A stretch of DNA of 39,680 bases from Betaproteobacteria bacterium (lineage in GTDB: Bacteria > Pseudomonadota > Gammaproteobacteria > Burkholderiales > SG8-41), in NCBI GenBank assembly GCA_947467315.1, contig CANIID010000013.1, positions 1-39,680 of the forward strand, given 5' to 3'. This document shows positions 2,354 to 27,624 of this stretch, one piece after another. Position 1 is the first letter of the stretch. Every line of letters starts with the position of its first letter. The notes under the pieces are model-generated. The model made no database searches and was not told the DNA's origin. It saw nothing but the letters and a program-made list of their open reading frames with translations. The translations under genes were made by a program, and so were the position numbers.

Positions 2354-3721
2354 ATGCACATTCACATCCTCGGCATTTGCGGTACTTTCATGGGCGGCAT
2401 CGCGGCGATTGCGCGGGCTGCCGGGCACAAAGTCACGGGGTGCGATGCCAACGTGTATCCGCCGATGAGCACGCAGCTTGAGGCGCAGGGCATCGCGCTC
2501 ATCGAGGGTTTTGGTGTTGATCAGATAAAACTCGAACCGGATTTGTTCGTCACCGGCAACGTGGTGGCGCGCGGCAATGCGTTGATGGAAGAAATTCTCA
2601 ATCGCGGTTTGCCGTATACCTCCGGCCCGCAGTGGTTGGCTGAAAACGTGTTGCGCGACAAATGGGTGCTGGCGGTGGCGGGCACGCACGGCAAAACCAC
2701 CACCAGCGCAATGCTGGCATGGATGCTCGAACACGGCGGGTTGAATCCCGGCTTTCTTGTCGGCGGCGTGCCGGAGAATTTCGGCATTTCGGCGCGGCTT
2801 ACCGATGCGCCGTTTTTTGTCATTGAGGCCGATGAATACGACACGGCGTTTTCCGACAAGCGTTCCAAGTTTGTGCATTACCATCCGCGCACGGCGATCT
2901 TGAACAATCTTGAATTCGATCACGCGGATATTTTTGCCGATCTCGCGGCGATAGAGACGCAGTTTCATCATTTGGTGCGCACCGTGCCGGGCAATGGCTT
3001 GATTGTCAGCAACGGCGTTGATGCGAATCTGGAGCGCGTGTTGAAACGCGGCTGCTGGACGCCCATCGAGCGCTTTGGCGTCACCGGCGGTTGGCAGGCG
3101 GGCGCCCGTTACGCGGATGGTTTCGACGTGTTATTCAACGGTGCATTGCAGGGCCGAATACAGTGGGATCTGCTCGGCGAACACAACGTGGCGAATGCGC
3201 TGGCGGCGATTGCCGCTGCGCGCCACGCGGGCGTGCCGGCCAGGATGGCCATCGAAGCGATGGCGACCTTCAAAAACGTCAAGCGCCGCATGGAGATCAA
3301 AGGCGTCGCCGGTGGCGTCACTGTTTACGATGATTTCGCGCATCACCCCACGGCGATTGCCACCACCATCGCCGGCTTGCGCGCCAAAATCGGCGGCGCG
3401 CGCCTGATTGCCGTGCTGGAGCCGCGTTCCAACACCATGAAGCAGGGCGCATTGAAAGATTTGCTCGCGGGCAGCCTTGCGGGGGCAGACCGGGTGTTTT
3501 GCTACAGCGCCGGGCTGGGCTGGGATGCGGGCGCGGTGCTCGCGCCGCTGGGCGCGAAAGTCAGCGTGAACGAACAATTTGACGGCTTGCTCGCGCAGGT
3601 GGCCGCCGCCGCGCGCGCCGGCGACCATGTGCTGGTGATGAGCAACGGCGGCTTTGGCGGCATACACGACAAGCTGCTATCGCGCCTTGCAGATAACGCA
3701 GTGAAGGGCGCCGGGTCATGA
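2354..3721 (+). CDS. mpl: UDP-N-acetylmuramate:tripeptide ligase Mpl
   Basis: 455 residues, the usual Mpl length. Mpl is the cytoplasmic peptidoglycan-recycling ligase that joins the recovered tripeptide L-Ala-gamma-D-Glu-meso-DAP to UDP-MurNAc. The start MHIHILGICGTFMGG is the Mpl-type N-terminus with a nucleotide-binding loop. The ATP-binding loop is VAGTHGKTTTSAM (about residues 114-126), and EADEYDTAFSDKRSKF and NLEFDHADIF are Mur-ligase motifs. YDDFAHHPTAI and LEPRSNTMKQG are the C-terminal Mpl motifs that separate it from MurC. I chose ATG 2354, since the longer frame from 2276 adds unrelated residues from the inverted repeat. Its TGA overlaps the ATG of the next gene (ATGA). Confidence 0.95.
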   Translation: MHIHILGICGTFMGGIAAIARAAGHKVTGCDANVYPPMSTQLEAQGIALIEGFGVDQIKLEPDLFVTGNVVARGNALMEEILNRGLPYTSGPQWLAENVLRDKWVLAVAGTHGKTTTSAMLAWMLEHGGLNPGFLVGGVPENFGISARLTDAPFFVIEADEYDTAFSDKRSKFVHYHPRTAILNNLEFDHADIFADLAAIETQFHHLVRTVPGNGLIVSNGVDANLERVLKRGCWTPIERFGVTGGWQAGARYADGFDVLFNGALQGRIQWDLLGEHNVANALAAIAAARHAGVPARMAIEAMATFKNVKRRMEIKGVAGGVTVYDDFAHHPTAIATTIAGLRAKIGGARLIAVLEPRSNTMKQGALKDLLAGSLAGADRVFCYSAGLGWDAGAVLAPLGAKVSVNEQFDGLLAQVAAAARAGDHVLVMSNGGFGGIHDKLLSRLADNAVKGAGS

Positions 3722-17685: not shown

Positions 17686-17811
17686 ATGATAACCACCAGC
17701 ACGATACGCACTCCAGGAGACCTGAAGGCCCGCGTCGTCGCTGCCGCCGAGCGCGCAGGACGACCCGCTACGCCAACGGTCAGTGATGCGCGTTGTGGCG
17801 CTCACCCGTGA
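17686..17811 (+). pseudogene. Ribbon-helix-helix antitoxin, N-terminal fragment
   Basis: ATG 17686 opens a 41-codon frame. Its first ~26 residues (TSTIRTPGDLKARVVAAAER and AG) look like the beta strand and first helix of CopG/ParD-like antitoxins. Similarity ends at about 17760, and the rest of the frame is antisense to the end of the PCuAC gene. It directly follows the 95-bp inverted-repeat element. No toxin gene remains. Confidence 0.5.
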
Positions 17812-18253
17812 TATCACGCACTTCCGCCGACAGCTCCAGCGATTCACGCTTTTTGTCCGCGAGTTCAAAGGTGAGCTTCAACGCCACGCGCTCGCCCGGC
17901 TTCATCTGCTGTTTGAGCCCCATCATCATGACGTGATAGCCGCCGGACGCGAGCTTGACGGTTTTGCCGGCGGGGATATCGATGCCGTCCACCGGGAACA
18001 TTTTCATCACGCCGTTTTGCATGGTCATGTTGTGAATTTCGACGGATGTCGCCACCGGGCTTTCCACGCTCAACAAGCGCACGGTGCTTTTGGCGGTAAT
18101 CTCCATGAACGCGCCAGTGCCTTTTTGTGCGGCCACCGTGCCGCGCACCCAGGCCTCTTTCACCTCAACCGATTGCGCGTGTGCGGCAACCGGCAGCGCC
18201 ATGGCGGCGCTGGACACCATGATAGTCAGTGCTAACCTTAATCCGTGAATCAC
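17780..18253 (-). CDS. Periplasmic copper chaperone PCu(A)C
   Basis: 157 residues with a signal peptide ending VAAHAQS. The copper site HNMTMQNGVMKM (near residue 93) plus GGYHVMMMGLKQ (near 125) supplies the His and Met ligands of the H(M)X10MX21HXM pattern of the PCuAC family, which delivers Cu(I) to cytochrome oxidase subunits. VKEAWVRGTV and GTGAFMEI are also typical. A His-rich tail (GERHNAHH) could add metal binding. The GTG start at 18253 is set by AAAGGA inside an AT-rich repeat copy. It lies 56 bases after hslU in the same direction. Confidence 0.92.
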   Translation of the reverse strand: MIHGLRLALTIMVSSAAMALPVAAHAQSVEVKEAWVRGTVAAQKGTGAFMEITAKSTVRLLSVESPVATSVEIHNMTMQNGVMKMFPVDGIDIPAGKTVKLASGGYHVMMMGLKQQMKPGERVALKLTFELADKKRESLELSAEVRDITGERHNAHH

Positions 18254-18309: not shown

Positions 18310-19635
18310 TTACAGCACGTAACGCGCGAGGTCCTCGCTTTGTGCCAGGTCTTTTAAGCGCGCATCCACGTAAGCACCGTCGATGGCCACTGTCTCGCCG
18401 CTGTGTTTGCCGGCGTTGAAGGATATGTCCTCCAGCAGTTTTTCCATCACGGTATAAAGCCGGCGCGCGCCGATGTTTTCGGTTTTTTCATTCACCTGCC
18501 ACGCGATCTCGGCGAGGCGTTTGATTGCGTCCGCACCGAACGCGAGTTTCACTTCTTCGGTGGCGAGCAAGGCTTCGTATTGCTTGACCAGGCTGGCGTG
18601 GGTGTTGGTGAGTATCTGCTCAAAATCGGACACTGACAGACTGCTCAACTCAACACGGATCGGAAAGCGCCCCTGCAATTCGGGTATCAAATCCGACGGT
18701 TTTGAAAAATGAAACGCGCCGCTGGCGATGAATAAAATATGATCGGTCTTGATCATGCCGTATTTGGTGGTGACAGTCGTGCCTTCGACCAGCGGCAACA
18801 AATCGCGCTGCACGCCCTGGCGCGACACATCGGCGCCGGAGGATTCCTGCCGCCCGGCGATCTTGTCGATTTCATCGAGGAACACGATACCGTTTTGCTC
18901 GACGCTGTTGACCGCCTGCTGTTTCAAATCTTCGTCGTTGACCAGCTTGCCAGCCTCTTCATCGGTCAACAGTTTCATCGCGTCGCGCACTTTCATCTTG
19001 CGCGTGCGTTTTTTGCCGGTTCCGATGTTCTGGAACATGCCCTGTATCTGCGAGGTTAAGTCTTCCATGCCGGGCGGGGCCATGATCTCCATGTGCGCCT
19101 GCATGCCCGCGACTTCGATCTCGATTTCCTTGTCGTCGAATTCGCCTTCGCGCAGTTTTTTTCGGAATTTCTGCCGCGTGGGGTTTTCGCCTTCTTCTGC
19201 GGTTGCCCCGAAATCCGGCGGCGGCGGCAACAGCACATCGAGCACGCGCTCTTCCGCCATATCTTCGGCCTGACGCCGCACCTTGCGCGTGGCTTCTGTG
19301 CGGATGTCCTTGATCGCGGTTTCCACCAGATCGCGGATGATGGTATCGACATCGCGTCCGACGTAGCCCACCTCGGTGAATTTCGTCGCTTCGATCTTAA
19401 TAAACGGCGCGTCGGCCAACCGCGCCAGCCGGCGCGCGATTTCCGTTTTGCCCACGCCGGTGGGCCCAATCATCAAAATATTCTTCGGCGTGATTTCCTG
19501 ACGCAGCGGCTCGGCCACCTGCTGCCGCCGCCAGCGATTGCGCAGCGCAATCGCGACCGCGCGCTTGGCGTCATCCTGACCGATGATATGGCGGTCGAGC
19601 TCGTGTACGATTTCCTGGGGGGTCATGTGTGACAT
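18310..19635 (-). CDS. hslU: HslU, ATPase subunit of the HslVU protease
   Basis: 441 residues, like E. coli HslU (443). HslU is the cytoplasmic hexameric AAA+ unfoldase that feeds substrates to HslV. ATG 19635 gives the family N-terminus [20 protein letters not shown]; the longer frame from 19668 only adds residues read from a repeat. Walker A is [13 protein letters not shown]. The I-domain (about 110-240) carries the substrate loop [16 protein letters not shown] just before it. Walker B is [14 protein letters not shown], and the sensor/C-domain segment is [19 protein letters not shown]. The C-terminal tail DLARYVL, which docks into HslV, is intact. It follows hslV by 79 bases that hold an inverted repeat. 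Confidence 0.97.
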
Positions 19636-20352: not shown

Positions 20353-21045
20353 TCAATCCAGCTTGAACACCACCGGCACTACATACGGCGACTCAATGGC
20401 TTGTGCGCCCTGCCGCGCCGGCACAAACCGCCACGCTTTTACCGCCGCGAGCGCGGCTTCGTCGAGTGACGCATGGCCGCTGGTTTTTTCGAGGCCCACA
20501 CTGGCTGCAAGTCCTTCGGCAGTGACCAGCACGCGGATCAACACTGTGCCTTGATCGCCACGGCGCCGCGCCGCGAGCGGATACACCGGTCGTGGATTGT
20601 TCAGGTACGCCGCATCGGAACGCGGCGGCGTTGCCGGTGCCGGTGCGGCGACAGGCGCAAGCGCCGGACGCTGCACGTCAGGCGGCGGCGCGGGACGCTG
20701 TTCTGGGACCACAATCGACGACGGCGGCGCCTCGGGCGCCGCCATCAGTATCGTATCTTGTTGCGCACGCGGTTCCGTTGTTTGCGCAACCGCAGGCTTC
20801 AGTGGCTGGGGCGCTGGACGCTCCCGTGGCACATCCAGCGGCAACGGTTTCGGCGGGACGATCTGCGGCGACGTTTCCGGCGAAATCAGTTCGACCGTGA
20901 GCGGGTGCGGCAAATCGTCACGCAGTGCCTTCCATTGCGGCAGCAGCGTCAGCACTATCGCGTGCGTCGCCACGCTGCCCGCTAGACACAGCATCAGCAG
21001 CGCATGATTGTGCGCCTTGACGGTCGAAATTGAATCTGCAGCCAT
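20353..21045 (-). CDS. tonB: TonB-family energy transducer
   Basis: 230 residues. One N-terminal membrane helix (about 14-33, LMLCLAGSVATHAIVLTLLP) is followed by a long Pro-rich periplasmic spacer (PPKPLPLDVPRERPAPQPLK and on to 145). The C-terminal TonB domain follows: NNPRPVYPLAARRRGDQGTV, SVGLEKTSGHASLDEAALAA and VKAWRFVPARQG. It passes proton-motive force to outer-membrane receptors. It follows the receptor gene by 122 bases in the same direction, so it probably serves that receptor. No exbB/exbD is in the window. The start region (TTTAAAGATTATTTAATA before ATG) is an AT-rich repeat copy with a weak Shine-Dalgarno. Confidence 0.9.
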   Translation of the reverse strand: MAADSISTVKAHNHALLMLCLAGSVATHAIVLTLLPQWKALRDDLPHPLTVELISPETSPQIVPPKPLPLDVPRERPAPQPLKPAVAQTTEPRAQQDTILMAAPEAPPSSIVVPEQRPAPPPDVQRPALAPVAAPAPATPPRSDAAYLNNPRPVYPLAARRRGDQGTVLIRVLVTAEGLAASVGLEKTSGHASLDEAALAAVKAWRFVPARQGAQAIESPYVVPVVFKLD

Positions 21046-21076
21046 TATTAAATAATCTTTAAAAACAAATGCTTAT
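21046..21076 (-). repeat. AT-rich dispersed repeat, copy 6, at the tonB start
   Basis: Minus strand: ATAAGCATTTG then TTTTTAAAGATTATTTAATA, ending just before the tonB ATG. The mini-frame TTG-TTT-TTA-AAG-ATT-ATT-TAA closes two bases before that ATG. Confidence 0.75.
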
Positions 21077-21167
21077 ACATAAATACTACTACCCGTAACA
21101 CCGCGCGAGGCGTGATTATCGTCCGCTTTACCCGGCGCGACAAACACGCTCAACGCCGCACGGTGGC

Positions 21168-23282
21168 TTAGAACTGCACGCGCATACCCACCTGCCCGCT
21201 CCGCTTGCCCATTGGCGCGATATCTTTCAAAAACGACACGTGATTGCGCGCATCCGCGTTAAGCAAGTTCACGCCGCGCAGAAAAAGCTCCGCGCTGCCG
21301 TGTGGTGTCGGCGACTTCATGCGGTAGGTCAAAGCCGCATTGAGCATGGTGTAACTGTCGGTAGGCAATTCATTGGCCGACACACGATTTTGCGCAGACA
21401 CCCACGTTGCATCCACCCGCGCGCCGAACTGGCCCCAGCGATAATCAAGGCCCGCACCGAATCGTCGCGGCGCAATGCGCGGCAGCGGCAGGCCGGTGTA
21501 GCGATCATCGGCGCGCACGTAGTCGAACTTCAGCAGTAAATCGAGCGTGTTCGCCCGATCCAGCAATCTGAGTTTTCCTTCGGCCTCCATGCCGCGAAAG
21601 CGCGCGGGCACGGCGCGATAGGCGAGTTCGGGCAACACTTCTTCGCCCGTGTTATCCGAAACGCCGGGCGTAATCGTCTCAGGCGGATTCAGCTCGCCAT
21701 CCGCGCCACGTGTGTTACCACTATTGAACACGCCGATGTAGTTCTTGAAACGGCTGTGGAACACACTGATGCTGCCCGAGTGCGCGCCGGAACGCATACG
21801 CAATGCGGCATCGAAGGCCCGTGATTTTTCTCTGGCGAATGTGCTGTCACCCACCTCGTAAGAGCCCGTCGCGGCGTGCGGGCCGTTGGCATACAACTCA
21901 TAATAAGTCGGCGCGCGCTCGGTCATCGTGCCGTTAAGCGCCAGCGCCAGTCCCGGTGTAAAACGATAGACGCCGCCAATGGCACCGCTGTTGCCGCTGA
22001 AGGATCGAGCCTGCGTTGGATCGAAGCGCGGCCCTGCGCCGCCAAACGGCGTGGGGCCGCCGCCTTGCGAGCTGACTTCGGTTCGCTCGTGACGTCCGCC
22101 AAAGGTGAGCTTCAATTTTCCTATCGGCAGCTCTTCATAAATAAACAGTGCCTTGCTGTCGGTTTTCGTCGTCGGCACAAACGCTTCGGCGCCGAGCGCG
22201 GAAAAATCAACGCTGTTGAACTGCACGCCAACCGCGCCTTTCAGCGGGCCGAGATTGCCATGCACCAGTTCCAGCCTGCCTTCGTGTCCTCTGCTTTTGA
22301 AATCGGTGGCCGGCACGCCGGCGTCAAGCTCGGTGTGTTTGTAGTCGGTCTTGCCCAGTTTGAATTTAACGCCGGTGATAAATGACCCGATGTCGCGCAT
22401 TTCACCCGCAAGATCCCAGCGCTTGCTCTCCATGTCGATGGTCACTTCCGGCTCGGCTACCGTACCGTATCGGCTCTCGAACGAGGAGAACGACAAGCCA
22501 ACATAGCCCTTGTCCCACGTGGCGGAGCCGCCTATCGATCCGCCGCTGGAACGCGACGCGCTGTTGGGCAGGGTGCCGTAGGTTACGGCTCGCGCCGGAT
22601 CAGTGGCTTGCAGACGTGGCGAAATAGTCGGGCCTTTAATTTTCAAATCATCGGTGTCGCGGGTGTACACGTCGGTATGCAGCGCAAAGCGCCCGTTGCC
22701 GGCTTCCAGCATGGCGCCGAAGGCCTTCTCGGATTCGGCGCCGCCGAGACGCCCCTCGGCTCTGCCGCGCACGCCCTGCAGCGGCTCCTGCGGAATACGG
22801 TTGTCGATCACGTTGACCACACCGCCCACCGCGTTGCCGCCATAGAAAAGTGCCGCCGGTCCGCGCACCACTTCGACACGCTCGACCACCAGCGGATCAA
22901 TCGGCACCGCGTGATCGTTGCTCAATGAAGAAGCATCGAGCACGCCGGTGCCATTGCTAAGAATGCGTATGCGATCGCCTTCAAGACCGCGGATCACCGG
23001 GCGGCTGGCGTTGGGGCCGAAGTACGTGGAGCTCACACCAGGCATTTCGTTCAGGGTTTCCCCCAGCGTCGAGCGGCGCTGCAAAAAAAGGTTGGTTCCT
23101 TCCAACACGGACGTCGGCGACACCAGGCTGAACAGTTCACTGCCCAGCGGATTGCCAGTGACGATCACCGGCGACAATTGAGTCGGTGTCCCCGTAGTGG
23201 CGGGGGGCTTAGCAGCAGGGGTCTGCGCGTGCGCGGAAACCGCGAACGCAGCAGCGACCGCATAGGCGATGCGACTGAACAT
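21168..23282 (-). CDS. TonB-dependent outer-membrane receptor, ZnuD-like
   Basis: 704 residues from ATG 23282, which has AGGAG seven bases upstream. A signal peptide (AVAAAFAVSAHAQ) is followed by a plug domain: LGETLNEMPGVSSTYFGPNA, SRPVIRGLEGDRIRILSNG, VLDASSLSNDHAVPIDPLVV and ERVEVVRGPAALFYGGNAVG. A 22-strand barrel follows, ending in an aromatic C-terminus (GQVGMRVQF). The NDHAVPIDP and GGVVNVIDNRIP segments are those of the ZnuD zinc-receptor group. Zinc specificity is inferred from this group and from the His-rich and DUF3299 neighbours. The long Gly/Ser/Pro loop (about 415-435) may be a variable surface loop. tonB follows downstream. Confidence 0.9.
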   Translation of the reverse strand: MFSRIAYAVAAAFAVSAHAQTPAAKPPATTGTPTQLSPVIVTGNPLGSELFSLVSPTSVLEGTNLFLQRRSTLGETLNEMPGVSSTYFGPNASRPVIRGLEGDRIRILSNGTGVLDASSLSNDHAVPIDPLVVERVEVVRGPAALFYGGNAVGGVVNVIDNRIPQEPLQGVRGRAEGRLGGAESEKAFGAMLEAGNGRFALHTDVYTRDTDDLKIKGPTISPRLQATDPARAVTYGTLPNSASRSSGGSIGGSATWDKGYVGLSFSSFESRYGTVAEPEVTIDMESKRWDLAGEMRDIGSFITGVKFKLGKTDYKHTELDAGVPATDFKSRGHEGRLELVHGNLGPLKGAVGVQFNSVDFSALGAEAFVPTTKTDSKALFIYEELPIGKLKLTFGGRHERTEVSSQGGGPTPFGGAGPRFDPTQARSFSGNSGAIGGVYRFTPGLALALNGTMTERAPTYYELYANGPHAATGSYEVGDSTFAREKSRAFDAALRMRSGAHSGSISVFHSRFKNYIGVFNSGNTRGADGELNPPETITPGVSDNTGEEVLPELAYRAVPARFRGMEAEGKLRLLDRANTLDLLLKFDYVRADDRYTGLPLPRIAPRRFGAGLDYRWGQFGARVDATWVSAQNRVSANELPTDSYTMLNAALTYRMKSPTPHGSAELFLRGVNLLNADARNHVSFLKDIAPMGKRSGQVGMRVQF

Positions 23283-23392
23283 GAATTTCTCCTGTGGAAT
23301 GCACGAATACACGGCACGCAGACTCGAGCGATGCTCAAGCCGCGCGGGGTTTCAGAACTATGCGGCCGGGGCGTTACCCAAGCCGCAGCACA

Positions 23393-23761
23393 TCACAGGA
23401 AAAGGGGTGGACCGCGCGAGAGCGCAGGAACGGCTTCGGAACCGAGCCGCGGGTTAAACGTGTAGATTGCAACAGCCGCTGGAAGATCAGCGGCAACGAA
23501 AGCGGCACAAACACCATGCACTCCGCCCAGCACTTGGCCGAACGCGAGGTCGAAAGCGCACAAGCTGCGTTCCCCGGATGGGGATTCGTGGCCATCATCG
23601 CGACCATCCGCGTGCCCCTCGGTCTCGGCTTCATGGTCATGCGCGAGCGTGCCTTGTGCTCGTGCATCGCTGCCCGCATGCCATGTGGCATGCGCGATAG
23701 CGCCCTGCTGCGCCACGAGCAGCAGGACGACACAGAGATAATGGAATAACCGGCGAGACAA
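23393..23761 (-). CDS. Small exported His-rich protein (DUF2946-like)
   Basis: 122 residues, TTG start at 23761. An N-terminal signal/membrane segment (FHYLCVVLLLVAQQGAIAHA) is followed by a His/Asp/Glu-rich stretch (HDHEAETEGHADGRDDGHE) that could hold metal. A short conserved-looking part follows (LCAFDLAFGQVLGGVHG), and the tail is ALSRGPPLFL. The ending RGPP and the hydrophobic CAFDLAFGQ resemble DUF2946-type proteins, often found beside TonB-dependent receptors for metals. It lies 110 bases before the receptor gene in the same direction. The start codon is the weakest part of this call. Confidence 0.65.
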   Translation of the reverse strand: MSRRLFHYLCVVLLLVAQQGAIAHATWHAGSDARAQGTLAHDHEAETEGHADGRDDGHESPSGERSLCAFDLAFGQVLGGVHGVCAAFVAADLPAAVAIYTFNPRLGSEAVPALSRGPPLFL

Positions 23762-23770
23762 TTCAGAACT

Positions 23771-23792
23771 CAGTCCGCGTTCAACGCGACTG
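23771..23792. repeat. 10-bp hairpin within the metal gene set
   Basis: CAGTC-CGCGTT pairs with AACGCG-ACTG around a central C, with one bulged base. It lies between the DUF3299 stop and the start of the His-rich gene. No U-run follows, so it may slow or stabilise transcript ends rather than terminate. Confidence 0.35.
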
Positions 23793-23816
23793 AAGCAGCC
23801 CGAGGCAAGACGCGCA

Positions 23817-24344
23817 TTACTTCGCCACCGTCACCACGGCATCCGTGAGCCGATAGTAGAGCCCCATCGGATCATCCTTCAGTACGGCGAGTTTACCGGT
23901 GAGCAATATCGGCTCAAAGCCGTATTTCACTGGCGTCTTGGCCTGCACTTCGACCATTTGCTCCGGCCCGCCGGGCAAACAGAACGAGCACGACGGCGGC
24001 AGCGCGGCGAGTATGAAGCGCGCCTGCTTTTCACCCATGTCGAGCGGCATCATGAAACCCTGAATTTTGACTTCTTTTTTGTCGAGCGCGCTCACTTCTT
24101 TGGCGAACTCCGGCACAAACTTGTCTTTTTGTTTGACCGGCTTCACTTCGCCCAGCGTTTTCCACGACAGCACGCCTTTCATTTCCGGCAACGGCTTGTC
24201 GTTCCACTGCGACGCCGACGCATCGGCTGCGGGATTCTTGGCCATCAGGTCTTTACCGGCCGCCGGGCCTTTCTGCGGCTGCTGCGCCCACGCGCTGGCG
24301 CACACACCCATTAACACTGCGAAACATACGCTCGAAAATTTCAT
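23817..24344 (-). CDS. Periplasmic DUF3299 protein
   Basis: 175 residues with a signal peptide ending SAWAQ. The core VKIQGFMMPLDMGEKQARFI, LAALPPSCSFCLPGGPEQMV and YRLTDAVV is DUF3299. The CSFC pair and nearby acidic residues could bind metal. In several Proteobacteria, DUF3299 proteins are encoded with an FtsX-type ABC transporter in zinc-responsive operons. The same linkage is seen here: permease and ATPase upstream, ZnuD-like receptor downstream. Confidence 0.85.
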   Translation of the reverse strand: MKFSSVCFAVLMGVCASAWAQQPQKGPAAGKDLMAKNPAADASASQWNDKPLPEMKGVLSWKTLGEVKPVKQKDKFVPEFAKEVSALDKKEVKIQGFMMPLDMGEKQARFILAALPPSCSFCLPGGPEQMVEVQAKTPVKYGFEPILLTGKLAVLKDDPMGLYYRLTDAVVTVAK

Positions 24345-24408
24345 CGCAACCTCCAGAAGGTCAAACCCGTCAATAGCGAACTAGTCTACTCCACTCCGCA
24401 AACTATCA

Positions 24409-24438
24409 GTAAGTATATGTTTCTATTGATAATTTTAT
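24409..24438 (+). repeat. AT-rich dispersed repeat, copy 7
   Basis: Plus strand: GTAAGTATATG then TTTCTATTGATAATTTTAT. It abuts the stop codon of the small periplasmic protein gene and faces against the direction of the surrounding minus-strand genes, so it cannot act as their ribosome binding site. Confidence 0.6.
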
Positions 24439-24439
24439 A

Positions 24440-24709
24440 TCAGTGCTTGTGTTTCATGCCACACAGCGTGCCGATGCCCAGCCCCTTGCAGTCCTTCGCC
24501 AACTGCGCATGACAGGCTTTCTCGCCCTTGCCGCTCTCCAGACATTTCGCGGCGGTGAGATGCGCGTCCGCCATCGCGCGATGATCGAGGATGTCTTTTT
24601 GCACCTCGGCGGCGCCGTGCGCTTTGTCGCTTTTTGGCGTCTTGTCCTGCGCCCACGCGGGCGTAGCCATCAGAACAACGGCCAGCGTTGAAATCCAAAC
24701 TTTGTTCAT
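24440..24709 (-). CDS. Small periplasmic Cys/His protein
   Basis: 89 residues. AGGAG precedes ATG 24709. A signal peptide (STLAVVLMATPAWAQ) is followed by DHRAMADAHLTAAKCLESG, EKACHAQLAKDCKGLGIG and the ending TLCGMKHKH. Four Cys and several His in a short mature protein suggest metal binding or disulphides. I do not recognise a named family. It lies 26 bases after the ABC permease gene and 95 before DUF3299, so it belongs to the same transcript. Confidence 0.75.
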   Translation of the reverse strand: MNKVWISTLAVVLMATPAWAQDKTPKSDKAHGAAEVQKDILDHRAMADAHLTAAKCLESGKGEKACHAQLAKDCKGLGIGTLCGMKHKH

Positions 24710-24735
24710 GTGCTCTCCTATACTGTTGATAGACA

Positions 24736-25947
24736 TTAGCCGCGCGCCAAAGTGCCCGCGATGTCGGTGCGATACGCGCGCCACGCGGGGATCAGCGCGG
24801 CCAGCACGCCCACGCCCGCTGCCAGCGCCAGCACCCACCATTCCGTTTGCACCCAGATCCAGCCAGTGACCGAGACCTGTTGCGCGGCCTTCAACGCGTG
24901 ACCGAGCACCTCCGTCAGCCCATGCCCCAGCGCGATGCCCAACACACCGCCGATCAGCGCCAGCAGCAGCCCTTCGAACAGCAGCAACAGCATCAGCGTC
25001 CGTGGACGCGCGCCAAGCGTGCGCATTACCGCCAGATCGTAGCGCCGTTCGTTCAGCGCGTTGTAGAGCGCGATGAACACGGAGAGGCCGGCGCTGAACA
25101 CCAGCACCAGCGCAAAGCCGCGCAGTACATCCACCCCCACGCCGATGATGCTGAACAACCGCGCCGTCTCATACGCGGGCGAGGCCGCCTGCATCGCGGA
25201 ATTGTTATTCACATAACGCGGCAACATCGCGGCGGCTATCGGCGAGGCGTATTGAATCAGCAGCGCGGTGTATTCTTTTTCTTCTTCCTTCATCTGGTTG
25301 GCGATATCGTTGATGTCCTTGATCTCGTGATGATCGGCGTGCATCGCCCACACGCTTTCGACACTGCAAATCACCAGCCGGTCGAGCACCGTGCCGCTGC
25401 GTGCGAGAACGCCCGCCACCACATACGGATGCGCCTCGTGCGCATCACCCGCGTCACCCAGGCCGTGCGAGCCATGAAATTTATCGCCGAGTTTCAGCCC
25501 CGTGCGCGCGGCAACTTCCGCGCCGATCACCACTTCCAGCACTTTCTCCCAACGCTTGCCAGATGCAAATTTGGCGTCGTAATGCGTGAGGTAATCGTGC
25601 GTGGTACCGACGATGCGCGCGCCTTTGTAACTGTCGCCCAGCGCCAGCGGCATCGCCTTCTTCACCATGCGATGCTTCGATATCTCAAGCGCTTGTTTAT
25701 AAGGGATATTTCCCGTCGGCACATCCAGATGATAAATGCTCGACAAAATCACCTGCATCGGGCTGCCCTTGGCGCCGATCACCAGATCGATGCCCTGCGC
25801 ATCACGCCGCATGCGTTGGTCGAGCTGCGTGGTGGCGAGCAACAGCAGCACGATGGTCGCCACGCCCAGTGCCAGCAACAGGATATTCAGCAGCGTGTTG
25901 AGGCGGCGCGCTTTGAGATAGGCAAAGCTGATGGTGGCGAGGTTCAT
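24736..25947 (-). CDS. FtsX/MacB-type ABC transporter permease
   Basis: 403 residues from ATG 25947. Four membrane helices: about 17-38 (LLNILLLALGVATIVLLLLA) and three in the last 140 residues. Between the first two is a periplasmic MacB-type domain (DLVIGAKGSPMQVILSSIYH, DVPTGNIPYKQALEI). This is the permease of type VII ABC systems, which move molecules within the periplasm or couple ATP to periplasmic events. His-rich segments occur in that domain (KFHGSHGLGDAGDAHEAHP and MHADHHEIKD). They are unusual and fit a metal-related role. It overlaps the ATPase gene by four bases. Confidence 0.9.
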   Translation of the reverse strand: MNLATISFAYLKARRLNTLLNILLLALGVATIVLLLLATTQLDQRMRRDAQGIDLVIGAKGSPMQVILSSIYHLDVPTGNIPYKQALEISKHRMVKKAMPLALGDSYKGARIVGTTHDYLTHYDAKFASGKRWEKVLEVVIGAEVAARTGLKLGDKFHGSHGLGDAGDAHEAHPYVVAGVLARSGTVLDRLVICSVESVWAMHADHHEIKDINDIANQMKEEEKEYTALLIQYASPIAAAMLPRYVNNNSAMQAASPAYETARLFSIIGVGVDVLRGFALVLVFSAGLSVFIALYNALNERRYDLAVMRTLGARPRTLMLLLLFEGLLLALIGGVLGIALGHGLTEVLGHALKAAQQVSVTGWIWVQTEWWVLALAAGVGVLAALIPAWRAYRTDIAGTLARG

Positions 25948-26585
25948 GCGGCCACCCCAGTCAGTTCGTAGTGATTCGGCACACGCGACTTGATGCGCTG
26001 ATCGTGGGTAGCGATCACCAGTGTCGCGCCGCATGCGTGGGCCTGCGCCAGCAACAAATCCAGCACCTGCACGCAACGTGCATCGTCAAGGTTCGACGTC
26101 GGCTCATCGGCCAGCAGCAGCTTCGGCTTATTCACCACCGCGCGCGCCACCGCCACGCGCTGCGCCTGCCCGTGCGAGAGTTCATGCGGATGTGCGTGGG
26201 CTTTGTCGTCTAAATCAAGACTTGCCAGCACCTCGCACACGCGGGCCGCATCCTGCGCTTCGCCCGCCAAGTATTGTGCCAGCAGCAAATTATTCAGCAC
26301 CGTCAGGCTGTCGATGAGATGCAAGCGTTGCAACACGATGCCGATATGTTTGCCGCGAAACCGATCCAGCGCCGACGGCGACAATGCCATCATATCCTGA
26401 TCCGCCACCGTCACCTGCCCGGCGCTGGGCCGCAAGATGCCGGCCAGCACATGCAGCAAGGTGGTTTTGCCGCTGCCCGACGGCCCCAGCATCAGCCACT
26501 GCGCGCCCTGTTCGGCCTGCCACGCGTCGACGCGCAGCACGTCTTTTCCGTCATAGGCATGCGCAAGTTGGCGAACGGAGAACAT
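25944..26585 (-). CDS. ABC transporter ATP-binding protein (LolD/MacB class)
   Basis: 213 residues from ATG 26585 (a TTG at 26600 is possible). Walker A LGPSGSGKTTLLHVLAG at about 33-49, Q-loop IVLQRLHLIDSLTVLNN, signature LSHGQAQRVAVARAVV, Walker B KLLLADEPTSNLDD, and the switch His in LVIATHDQRIK. The signature LSHGQ is a small variation on LSGGQ. It energises the permease whose ATG overlaps its TGA. It is the first gene of the seven-gene minus-strand set running to tonB. Confidence 0.93.
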   Translation of the reverse strand: MFSVRQLAHAYDGKDVLRVDAWQAEQGAQWLMLGPSGSGKTTLLHVLAGILRPSAGQVTVADQDMMALSPSALDRFRGKHIGIVLQRLHLIDSLTVLNNLLLAQYLAGEAQDAARVCEVLASLDLDDKAHAHPHELSHGQAQRVAVARAVVNKPKLLLADEPTSNLDDARCVQVLDLLLAQAHACGATLVIATHDQRIKSRVPNHYELTGVAA

Positions 26586-26800
26586 GATTTTGGTTTCCAA
26601 AGTTGGGCTGGCATTTTACCGCCACCGCGTCGCGCTTGCGGCGCGTCGCTCCAAACGTCTGGTGTCGCGTCCAAACACAAGCTGTTGCGCGCAGCACACA
26701 CCGACACATCACAAACGGTTGAATATATGGGGGAATTTCTCTTTTCACCCCTCATTTGATATCCTCTCGCTACGATAACCATGCCCACTGGGAACCCCTT

Positions 26801-27591
26801 ATGTTGACGACTTCGCTACGCACACTGGCTTTGGCCGCCCTGGTCGGCCTCGGCGCCGGCGCTTACGTTCCCGCCGTGACTGCTGCTCCCGACGAAATTG
26901 TGGTGTTTACCGACGAGTTCGAGAAAAAAGGCGCGGTCGGCTACGAGTTGCACCTGAACTACGCCGCGCGCGCGCAAAACGCCGGATTACCCCGGCGAGC
27001 AAGCGCCGCATCATGTTTTCCGCGTCATGCCTGAAATCGTCTGGGGCTTGTCAGAGAAGTGGAACCTCGGTCTGCATTTTCCGCTGTCGTACGACCCCGC
27101 CACAAAATCCGCCAAGCTCGACGGCGCGAAAGTGCGTTTGCATTATCTGAACGTCAACGAGCACAGCCCCGACAGCGCGACCTTTTATGGCGTCAATTAC
27201 GAGGTCTCGGCCTATAGCAAGCGCATCACCGAATCACGCTACAACGCGGAGCTGCGCGGCATTGTGGGTGTGCGCGCCGGCGACTGGAAATTTACCGTCA
27301 ATCCGATCCTCACCAAGGCGCTCAGCGACAACCCCAATGGCAAGCATCTGGAGTTCGAGGTATTCGGCCAGGCGCTGCGTTCATTCGACGAAGATTTCGC
27401 CGTGGGCATCGAACATTATTCGTCACTCGGTCGGCTACCCGACGTTTGGCTCGCAATCGGAGCAAATCACCTACTTGGTAACCGATTTCAAGACCAAGCA
27501 TCACTTCGACATTCATCTGGGTATCGGACATGGCTGGACCAGCCCGACCGACAAACTGGTATTCAAAGCGCTGATCGGCATACCGTTTTAA
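26801..27591 (+). pseudogene. Secreted/outer-membrane protein with two frameshifts
   Basis: Three overlapping frames together make one protein of about 260 residues. Frame A, from ATG 26801, has a signal peptide (LAALVGLGAGAYVPAVTAA) and EIVVFTDEFEKKGAVGYELH, LNYAARA. It shifts inside a run of alternating G and C at about 26970-26980 to frame B: KTPDYPGEQAPHHVFRVMPE, WGLSEKWNLGLHFPLSYDP. Frame B shifts near 27425-27445 to frame C: GYPTFGSQSEQITYLVTDFK, ending WTSPTDKLVFKALIGIPF and TAA 27591. Beta-rich sequence with an aromatic C-terminus suggests an outer-membrane barrel. Adding one GC unit would repair the first break. True decay, sequencing error or slippage are all possible. Confidence 0.7.
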
Positions 27592-27624
27592 CTGCGGCGC
27601 GGCGGTAGCAAAGGTATCGACGCC

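Follow-up and report, generated by a model that had tools for sequence, protein, structure and literature searches.

Gram-negative zinc uptake is usually explained by Zur. Here we describe a seven-gene locus on contig CANIID010000013.1 (C13) of Betaproteobacteria bacterium (assembly GCA_947467315.1; Burkholderiales, SG8-41 in the GTDB lineage), a 5.2-Mb draft genome of 412 contigs and 98.1% completeness; positions 1 to 39,680 of this contig, the whole stretch analyzed, are referred to as the window. The locus runs on the minus strand from 26585 down to 20353 and comprises, in gene order, open reading frames (ORFs) for an ABC ATPase, an FtsX-type permease, a small Cys/His protein, a DUF3299 protein, a short His-rich product, a ZnuD-like TonB-dependent receptor, and TonB. 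Intergenic gaps are −4, 26, 95, 55, 110, and 122 nt, consistent with the one-way, closely spaced run of the original prediction, which was made from the sequence without database searches. With moderate confidence, and on sequence evidence, we interpret the locus as a zinc-scavenging set in which the short ORF directly upstream of the receptor gene would act as a zinc-responsive nascent-peptide switch, sharing or replacing the job of Zur.

The closest described counterpart of this upstream ORF is CruR, which precedes the Bordetella pertussis receptor gene bfrG and is described as carrying C-x-x-C, with a C-terminal RAPP 45 residues later (PMC9426467). CruR and CutF, both of the DUF2946 family, are presented as nascent-chain copper sensors (PMC9426467, PMC9973294). 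Copper is reported to relieve CruR arrest, allowing Rho-dependent termination (PMC9426467); CruR arrests in vitro, and among such motifs RAPP and RGPP are given as the likeliest to arrest, with RGPP arrest the most stable (PMC12992588). The receptor has its closest described relative in ZnuD of Neisseria meningitidis, and the transporter genes find theirs in ZrgABCDE of Vibrio and PA4063–PA4066 of Pseudomonas aeruginosa, the latter read as a MacB-type exporter of a pyochelin–cobalt complex (PMC11481552).

A probable arrest-peptide ORF before the receptor gene

The fifth gene (23393..23761, minus strand; 122 aa, TTG start) was originally predicted to encode a His-rich exported protein. It is instead a divergent DUF2946-like ORF with an SRGPP tail; it therefore looks regulatory, and is probably an arrest-peptide ORF. 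It begins 55 nt after the DUF3299 gene, stops 110 nt before the receptor gene, and encodes a hydrophobic N-terminus, the motif AQQGAxxHAxxH, a His-rich loop, C68-A-F-D71, and the C-terminus S-R-G-P-P-L-F-L, in which R116-G-P-P is followed by three residues. As in CruR–BfrG (CrtA) of B. pertussis, an exported DUF2946-type ORF with a near-terminal RAPP-like tail, here RGPP, stands directly before a TonB-dependent receptor gene. In place of a C-x-x-C about 45 residues before the tail, however, the window ORF has C-A-F-D at 47/44 residues, a spacing within the tolerance reported for CruR–BfrG, and an extra conserved His near its N-terminus; its receptor is ZnuD-like, the gap to the receptor gene is 110 nt against 162, and the predicted metal is zinc. 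CutF of Rhodobacter capsulatus is likewise an exported nascent sensor of this family with a proline-rich end, but it raises copper oxidase expression on copper, whereas the window receptor would be repressed by its own substrate.

Relatives of the locus were sought in 60 genomes of the window's family by a profile search for DUF3299, which matched in 32. The matches form a strong group (~143–156 bits) and a weak group (~31–42 bits, the window's kind), with one intermediate match of 59.8 bits (L062), where none of ten query proteins matched; 23 weak-type loci were fetched for comparison. The receptor is an optional part of the set: among the 21 loci with enough contig to judge, 14 encode a receptor (broken in L049) and seven lack it. 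Thirteen of these 14 loci carry an intact upstream ORF, and in the seven weak-type loci without a receptor no such ORF was found. In L049 (702–2035) receptor gene and upstream ORF are both broken and the ABC core is intact, and in L050 one ORF copy precedes the ATPase gene and another the receptor gene.

Fifteen aligned copies of the ORF share Q18, A21, H24, H28, C68, F70, L78, R116, P118, and P119, and the His-rich loop is their variable part. The spacing from Cys to Arg is 47 residues in 34/34 rows, and the next gene follows 81–126 nt after the ORF in 34/34 (several contigs are counted twice in these rows). Pairwise dN/dS values of 0.19–0.26 (five comparisons) point to purifying selection and indicate that the peptide itself matters. 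Were the product simply a periplasmic zinc-binding protein, with an RGPP tail and a gene position of no significance, it would also be His-rich, exported (as it appears to be by eye), and encoded within a zinc locus. Such a protein is nonetheless an unlikely explanation: the His-rich loop varies while the Cys, Arg, and both prolines are invariant, the spacing to RGPP is fixed, similar ORFs move among three kinds of target gene (see below), and no four-residue motif is reported to be more strongly excluded from bacterial proteomes than RGPP (PMC12992588).

The receptor and its probable metal

The receptor (21168..23282, minus strand) has ZnuD as its best solved relative (4rdr_A, E 4.8e-57), and its best NCBIfam model is the ZnuD piracy receptor NF038289 (298.9 bits, with the curated cut-off of 950 not reached). 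The two proteins belong to a common receptor fold family. The four high-affinity zinc ligands given for ZnuD, Asp99, His100, Glu340, and His499 (PMC4557270, one methods passage of which prints D90), all align to identical residues of the window receptor, D123, H124, E318, and H469, once a shift of 14 between the chain positions and the numbering of the paper, deduced from residue identity, is applied. These residues are kept in 32 of 33 aligned receptor rows, many of which are one contig under two ids; the outlier is L074.

Zinc is accordingly well supported by sequence as the metal of the set, in line with the original prediction: the ligand positions point to it, as do the Zur genes, Zur boxes, and ZIP and CobW genes that lie beside the locus in relatives, including L107 (described below). 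It is very improbable that the set imports nickel, cobalt, or heme. ZnuD was itself initially misannotated as a heme receptor (PMC4557270), and His-only CutF-like clusters are reported to precede HupE/UreJ genes (PMC9973294); against this stand the four retained zinc ligands and the Zur, ZIP, and CobW neighbors.

Zur and Zur boxes

The same 60 family genomes were searched with an E. coli Zur model, and the sequences were then inspected. Zur was found in 14 genomes, nine of which carry a weak-type locus, and in all nine of these loci the Zur and ATPase genes are no more than about 5 kb apart. L034, which belongs to the genus of the window, shows the order Zur, ZIP, CobW, ATPase (ZIP and CobW by Pfam), and ZIP- or CobW-like neighbors were recognized by eye in L047, L051, L053, and L054. 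Zur of Cupriavidus metallidurans is reported to control zupT, a TonB receptor, and cobW genes (PMC6103462). Visual inspection revealed a dyad, ATTGCAACNNNGTTGCAAT, upstream of Zur in eight of these loci, and it recurs in the ninth. It is thus found in 9/9 Zur-bearing loci and on the upstream side in 0/14 others, a comparison that is partly circular, as eight of the nine loci served to find the dyad, and that leaves out of its counts a downstream-side match with four mismatches in L037. The clearest link of the set to Zur is L107, a distant Burkholderiales locus with Zur, ATPase, FtsX, DUF3299, the dyad at one mismatch, and a receptor 44% identical to the window's.

ZnuD of N. meningitidis is expressed under Zur, whereas neither Zur nor its box was found in the window's genome. 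The two FUR-family matches of this genome are a Fur and an Irr-like gene. The latter, at 1224–1673 of L002 on contig C138, was considered as a Zur candidate and rejected as Irr-like; it falls just below the curated cut-off of NF045678 (129.9 bits against 150). With up to three mismatches allowed, the window contains no copy of the dyad (0.24 expected), and genome-wide its core occurs at the level of chance, 10 times against 12 for the reversed pattern. A gamma-type Zur box, TGTTATANTATAACA, gave best upstream matches at four mismatches and was dropped in favor of the relatives' dyad. Zur control, the lack of which the original prediction named as grounds for abandoning it, is therefore not indicated in this genome, but is indicated in the relatives.

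Within the window's genus, Zur was seen in two of the 12 genomes searched, the present one included. One miss is possible in G046, because the model found no FUR-type gene there at all. The ZnuD-like genes of Burkholderia and Caballeronia (L229, L231) have neither the box nor a RAPP-like ORF just upstream, so the arrangement is not universal.

Related ORFs across the Burkholderiales

Alignment searches with the upstream ORF gave matches in 35 of the 60 family genomes (E 0.1; 34 without a weak hit in G031, E 0.086) and in 32 of 300 genomes of the order, window family included (E 1e-4). Nine of 39 family-search rows and four of 34 order-search rows lacked a locus and stand outside the 53 loci compared. 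The next same-strand gene in these 53 is porin-like in 30, a ZnuD-like receptor in 19, and ZrgA in one, with no query match in three (L120, L211, L217). In L056/L137 the ORF heads a genuine ZrgA–ATPase–FtsX–DUF3299 operon, and that genome showed no Zur. The porin-like protein is unannotated, combines a coiled coil with a barrel-like part, and is encoded 55–277 nt behind the ORF (30 loci, including L142 and L213). It matches no Pfam family over cut-off, and a search of plasmids gave only two distant matches; this coiled-coil outer-membrane protein is a candidate zinc porin.

In each of 55 distinct tails the residue three positions after the Cys is Asp, Cys, or His; at the spacing of 47 it is Asp in 23, Cys in 21, and His in nine. 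Of the remaining two tails, one belongs to the Zur protein of L043, matched by chance, and the other to a CruR-like ORF from L064. Among the 21 Cys tails, one (L047) also comes from a CruR-like ORF, making three non-members among the 55 in all. Replacement of Cys by His or Asp would be the expected change in a move from copper towards zinc. These counts bear on whether the ORF is instead a CruR-like copper sensor, the receptor or the whole set serving copper. Copper is indeed what the described members of the family sense, and CruR stands at the head of a receptor operon (PMC9426467, PMC9973294); C-x-x-C is also retained in class members outside the window's family. Yet the second ligand is Asp or His in 32 of the 55 distinct tails, the genes behind the ORF encode a ZnuD-like receptor, ZrgA, or a porin, the receptor keeps the ZnuD ligands, and Zur adjoins the locus in relatives. 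A different receptor gene in the window's own genome (L120), moreover, is preceded by another ORF, of the ordinary C-x-x-C/RAPP type with 48/45 spacing. We consider a copper sensor at this position improbable, and zinc remains the metal that we favor.

Other ORFs of this general kind were encountered. L064 has two CruR-like C-x-x-C ORFs with RAPP/RDPP tails (17716–18114 and 18730–19194) a few kb beyond the locus. In Bacteroidota (Saprospiraceae), L110 (9489–9911) and L111 (10785–11201) each have a His-rich C-x-x-C ORF ending in RGPP, at CruR spacing, before a TonB-dependent receptor gene; the arrangement may therefore be older, or convergent.

A proposed zinc-responsive switch

The 110-nt leader that separates the upstream ORF from the receptor gene (23283..23392, minus strand) contains a GC-rich hairpin and is a weak candidate for conditional termination. 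Over 19 leaders, the hairpin behind the ORF stop has a mean z of −1.28, compared with −0.51 and +0.40 behind two internal genes. A conserved RNA switch was sought, and the leader DNA aligns poorly. Because of this poor alignment and the modest hairpin scores, termination is proposed here by analogy with CruR. The end of the ORF is a C-over-G stretch (C/G 1.18–1.45, against 0.57–1.00 over 14 DUF3299 windows), which fits Rho termination and proves nothing.

We propose the following model. Gene content, receptor ligands, synteny with Zur, selection on the ORF, and its invariant motifs and spacing come directly from the sequence; that the ribosome arrests, which metal is sensed, which way expression responds, and how termination occurs are inferred. 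The ZnuD-type receptor, powered by TonB, would take zinc across the outer membrane; in the periplasm, zinc would be handled by a Zrg-like, ATP-driven FtsX complex together with the DUF3299 and small Cys/His proteins, and it would enter the cytoplasm through a single ZIP permease encoded elsewhere. At low zinc, the RGPP tail would stall the ribosome at the upstream ORF, and the stalled ribosome, as with CruR, would keep RNA polymerase from early termination, so that receptor is made. Zinc bound by the emerging chain, perhaps through Cys68/Asp71 and His, would relieve the arrest, and receptor expression would stop. In a genus mostly without Zur, such a switch may take over part or all of Zur's control. 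Replacement of Zur by the ORF is the weak element of this proposal. The ORF is present in 29 of 46 Zur-less genomes and five of 14 Zur-bearing genomes (Fisher p 0.12); given this non-significant link and the five genomes with both, the ORF may add to Zur rather than replace it.

Several observations weigh against the model, alongside the circularity of the box comparison noted above. The upstream ORF does not reach the DUF2946 model (PF11162, 16.0 bits against a cut-off of 23.7), and the founding members of that family, CruR and CutF, sense copper. Similar ORFs in other Burkholderiales families keep C-x-x-C, and the 47/44 spacing had to be rejected as a mark of the class, since the CruR-like ORF in L047 shares it. 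The hairpin is modest, its mean z of −1.28 in the leader being exceeded by the −1.47 found behind the receptor gene, and no terminator was called in the leader. No convincing Zur box was found near the porin ORFs. That Zur and the ORF coexist in five of the 14 Zur-bearing genomes has been mentioned, and we do not claim that Zur loss is matched by ORF gain, the association being phylogenetically confounded as well as non-significant.

The ABC pair, DUF3299, and the Zrg comparison

The set opens with a LolD/FtsE/MacB-like ABC ATPase (25944..26585, minus strand; PF00005, 110.8 bits), whose best NCBIfam models are FtsE (172.3 bits) and LolD (160.2 bits), both under cut-off. The FtsX-type permease gene (24736..25947, minus strand) overlaps the ATPase stop by 4 nt; its product has a MacB-like periplasmic domain (PF02687, 61.3 bits; PF12704, 40.3 bits), and H121, H160, H169, and H202 are invariant in an alignment with 14 relatives. 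The divergent DUF3299 protein (23817..24344, minus strand; PF11736, 33.8 bits, cut-off 22) has an OB-like fold and a conserved C-x-x-C, C119 and C122 being invariant in 39 sequences; its structure model matches PA4066 (4hsp, E 1.6e-5).

The small exported Cys/His protein (24440..24709, minus strand; 89 aa) has no Pfam or NCBIfam match. C56, C66, C74, C83, H43, H50, and H87 are invariant in 29 sequences, L094 having been excluded for a stop codon. The protein is predicted to form a helical hairpin, and the model has no match in the PDB at E 0.001. A homolog on Polaromonas plasmid pE19SP1 (49% over 57 residues, E 2e-10) is flanked on one side by a gene annotated as a zinc ABC substrate-binding protein and on the other by a ZnuD-like receptor gene, with a box-like dyad (three mismatches) ~600 nt upstream. 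L037 (10517–10786) and L039 (10384–10653) each carry the small Cys/His gene a second time, between the receptor and TonB genes.

The original prediction proposed to check whether these families co-occur across Betaproteobacteria, and in the relatives fetched the core does: FtsX, the small Cys/His protein, and DUF3299 are found together in all 23 fetched weak-type loci, the receptor being the less constant part, and the ATPase is seen in 22, the contig of the remaining locus (L033) beginning inside FtsX. Because all 23 relatives with the divergent DUF3299 keep FtsX and the small protein, the association is not chance. An FtsX alignment scan yielded 56 loci, 34 titled beta-proteobacteria or Burkholderiales and 22 of Bacteroidota type; the closest named records are uncultured Betaproteobacteria/Burkholderiales metagenome-assembled genomes (MAGs). 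Of the 21 Bacteroidota-type loci examined (L119 left out), 14 have a recognizable DUF3299 gene next to FtsX, and in Saprospiraceae tandem DUF3299 gene pairs stand behind FtsX (L103, L106, L117, L118). Seven public MAG records titled Bordetella parapertussis (L066–L070, L075, L080) carry close relatives of the window's genus, and these titles look mislabeled.

The resemblance to the zinc-regulated Zrg genes, noted in the original prediction, stands as kinship of the ATPase–FtsX–DUF3299 core and not as a full Zrg system. ZrgABCDE and PA4063–PA4066 likewise have an ATPase, an FtsX/MacB-like permease, and DUF3299 in one run. In contrast to them, the window set includes the small Cys/His protein and lacks ZrgA, with no match to DUF2796 (PF10986) among its seven proteins, whereas the canonical comparator locus L056 has ZrgA at 160 bits. 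The window DUF3299 scores 33.8 bits against about 150 in canonical Zrg loci, the ATPase and FtsX share 30–42% identity with their canonical counterparts from the same family, and a Zur box was not found at the window locus.

FtsX-type pairs are not known as importers. The pair may instead export a metallophore complex, as argued for PA4064/PA4065, so that zinc is not directly handled. PA4063–PA4066, as interpreted in PMC11481552, offer a precedent for such export, and the window permease carries both MacB_PCD and FtsX domains. However, ATPase and permease are encoded separately rather than fused as in MacA–MacB–TolC, no MacA or TolC match was found among the seven proteins (the rest of the genome was not searched for them), and the conserved small Cys/His partner and the receptor suggest uptake. 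We lean away from metallophore export while giving it appreciable weight; such export would be compatible with control of the set by zinc.

TonB, cytoplasmic entry, and flanking genes

The last gene of the run (20353..21045, minus strand) encodes TonB (PF03544, 71.7 bits) and lies upstream of hslV (20257–19715) and hslU. It had been proposed as a dedicated energizer of the receptor. TonB is, however, kept in 7/7 loci without a receptor, it adjoins hslV in four of ten hslV loci from genomes without a DUF3299 match (the other six have no TonB match), and the window's genome has four TonB_C genes. Because the gene keeps its place at hslVU even in loci that lack the receptor or the ABC core, a role reserved for this set is not evident.

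The original prediction also remarked that no classical ZnuABC permease is included. This extends to the whole genome, in which the ABC-3 permease family (PF00950, ZnuB type) has no match, and ZnuABC was ruled out on this ground. As the genome has no ZnuB and one ZIP gene, located outside the set, zinc probably enters the cytoplasm through that single ZIP permease.

Upstream of the set, a divergent gene at 26756–27608 is split into two frames (92 and 193 aa) where the relative L035 has a single 275-aa ORF (2423–3250); the split reflects either a frameshift or an assembly error.

Implications

No report of a zinc-sensing arrest peptide was found in the open-license literature, subscription papers and preprints being mostly outside that search. 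Öztürk et al. suggest that some family members may sense nickel or cobalt (PMC9973294), and the word "zinc" does not occur in the main text of that paper or of the CruR paper, PMC9426467. A broader proposal, which we advance tentatively and with less assurance than the reading of the locus itself, is that DUF2946-like arrest peptides of the Burkholderiales may sense zinc rather than copper, through C-x-x-C/H/D and N-terminal His residues; that they may switch on ZnuD-type receptors, Zrg operons, and the coiled-coil porin; and that they may have allowed the loss of Zur in some lineages, the window's genus among them.

If correct, this would represent an undescribed way of sensing zinc, and a second, post-transcriptional route beside Zur. 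It would also imply that the copper-sensing CruR/CutF family has changed its metal by the swap of one ligand. Any gene behind such an ORF would then be a candidate zinc gene, including those for the unannotated porin and the small Cys/His protein.

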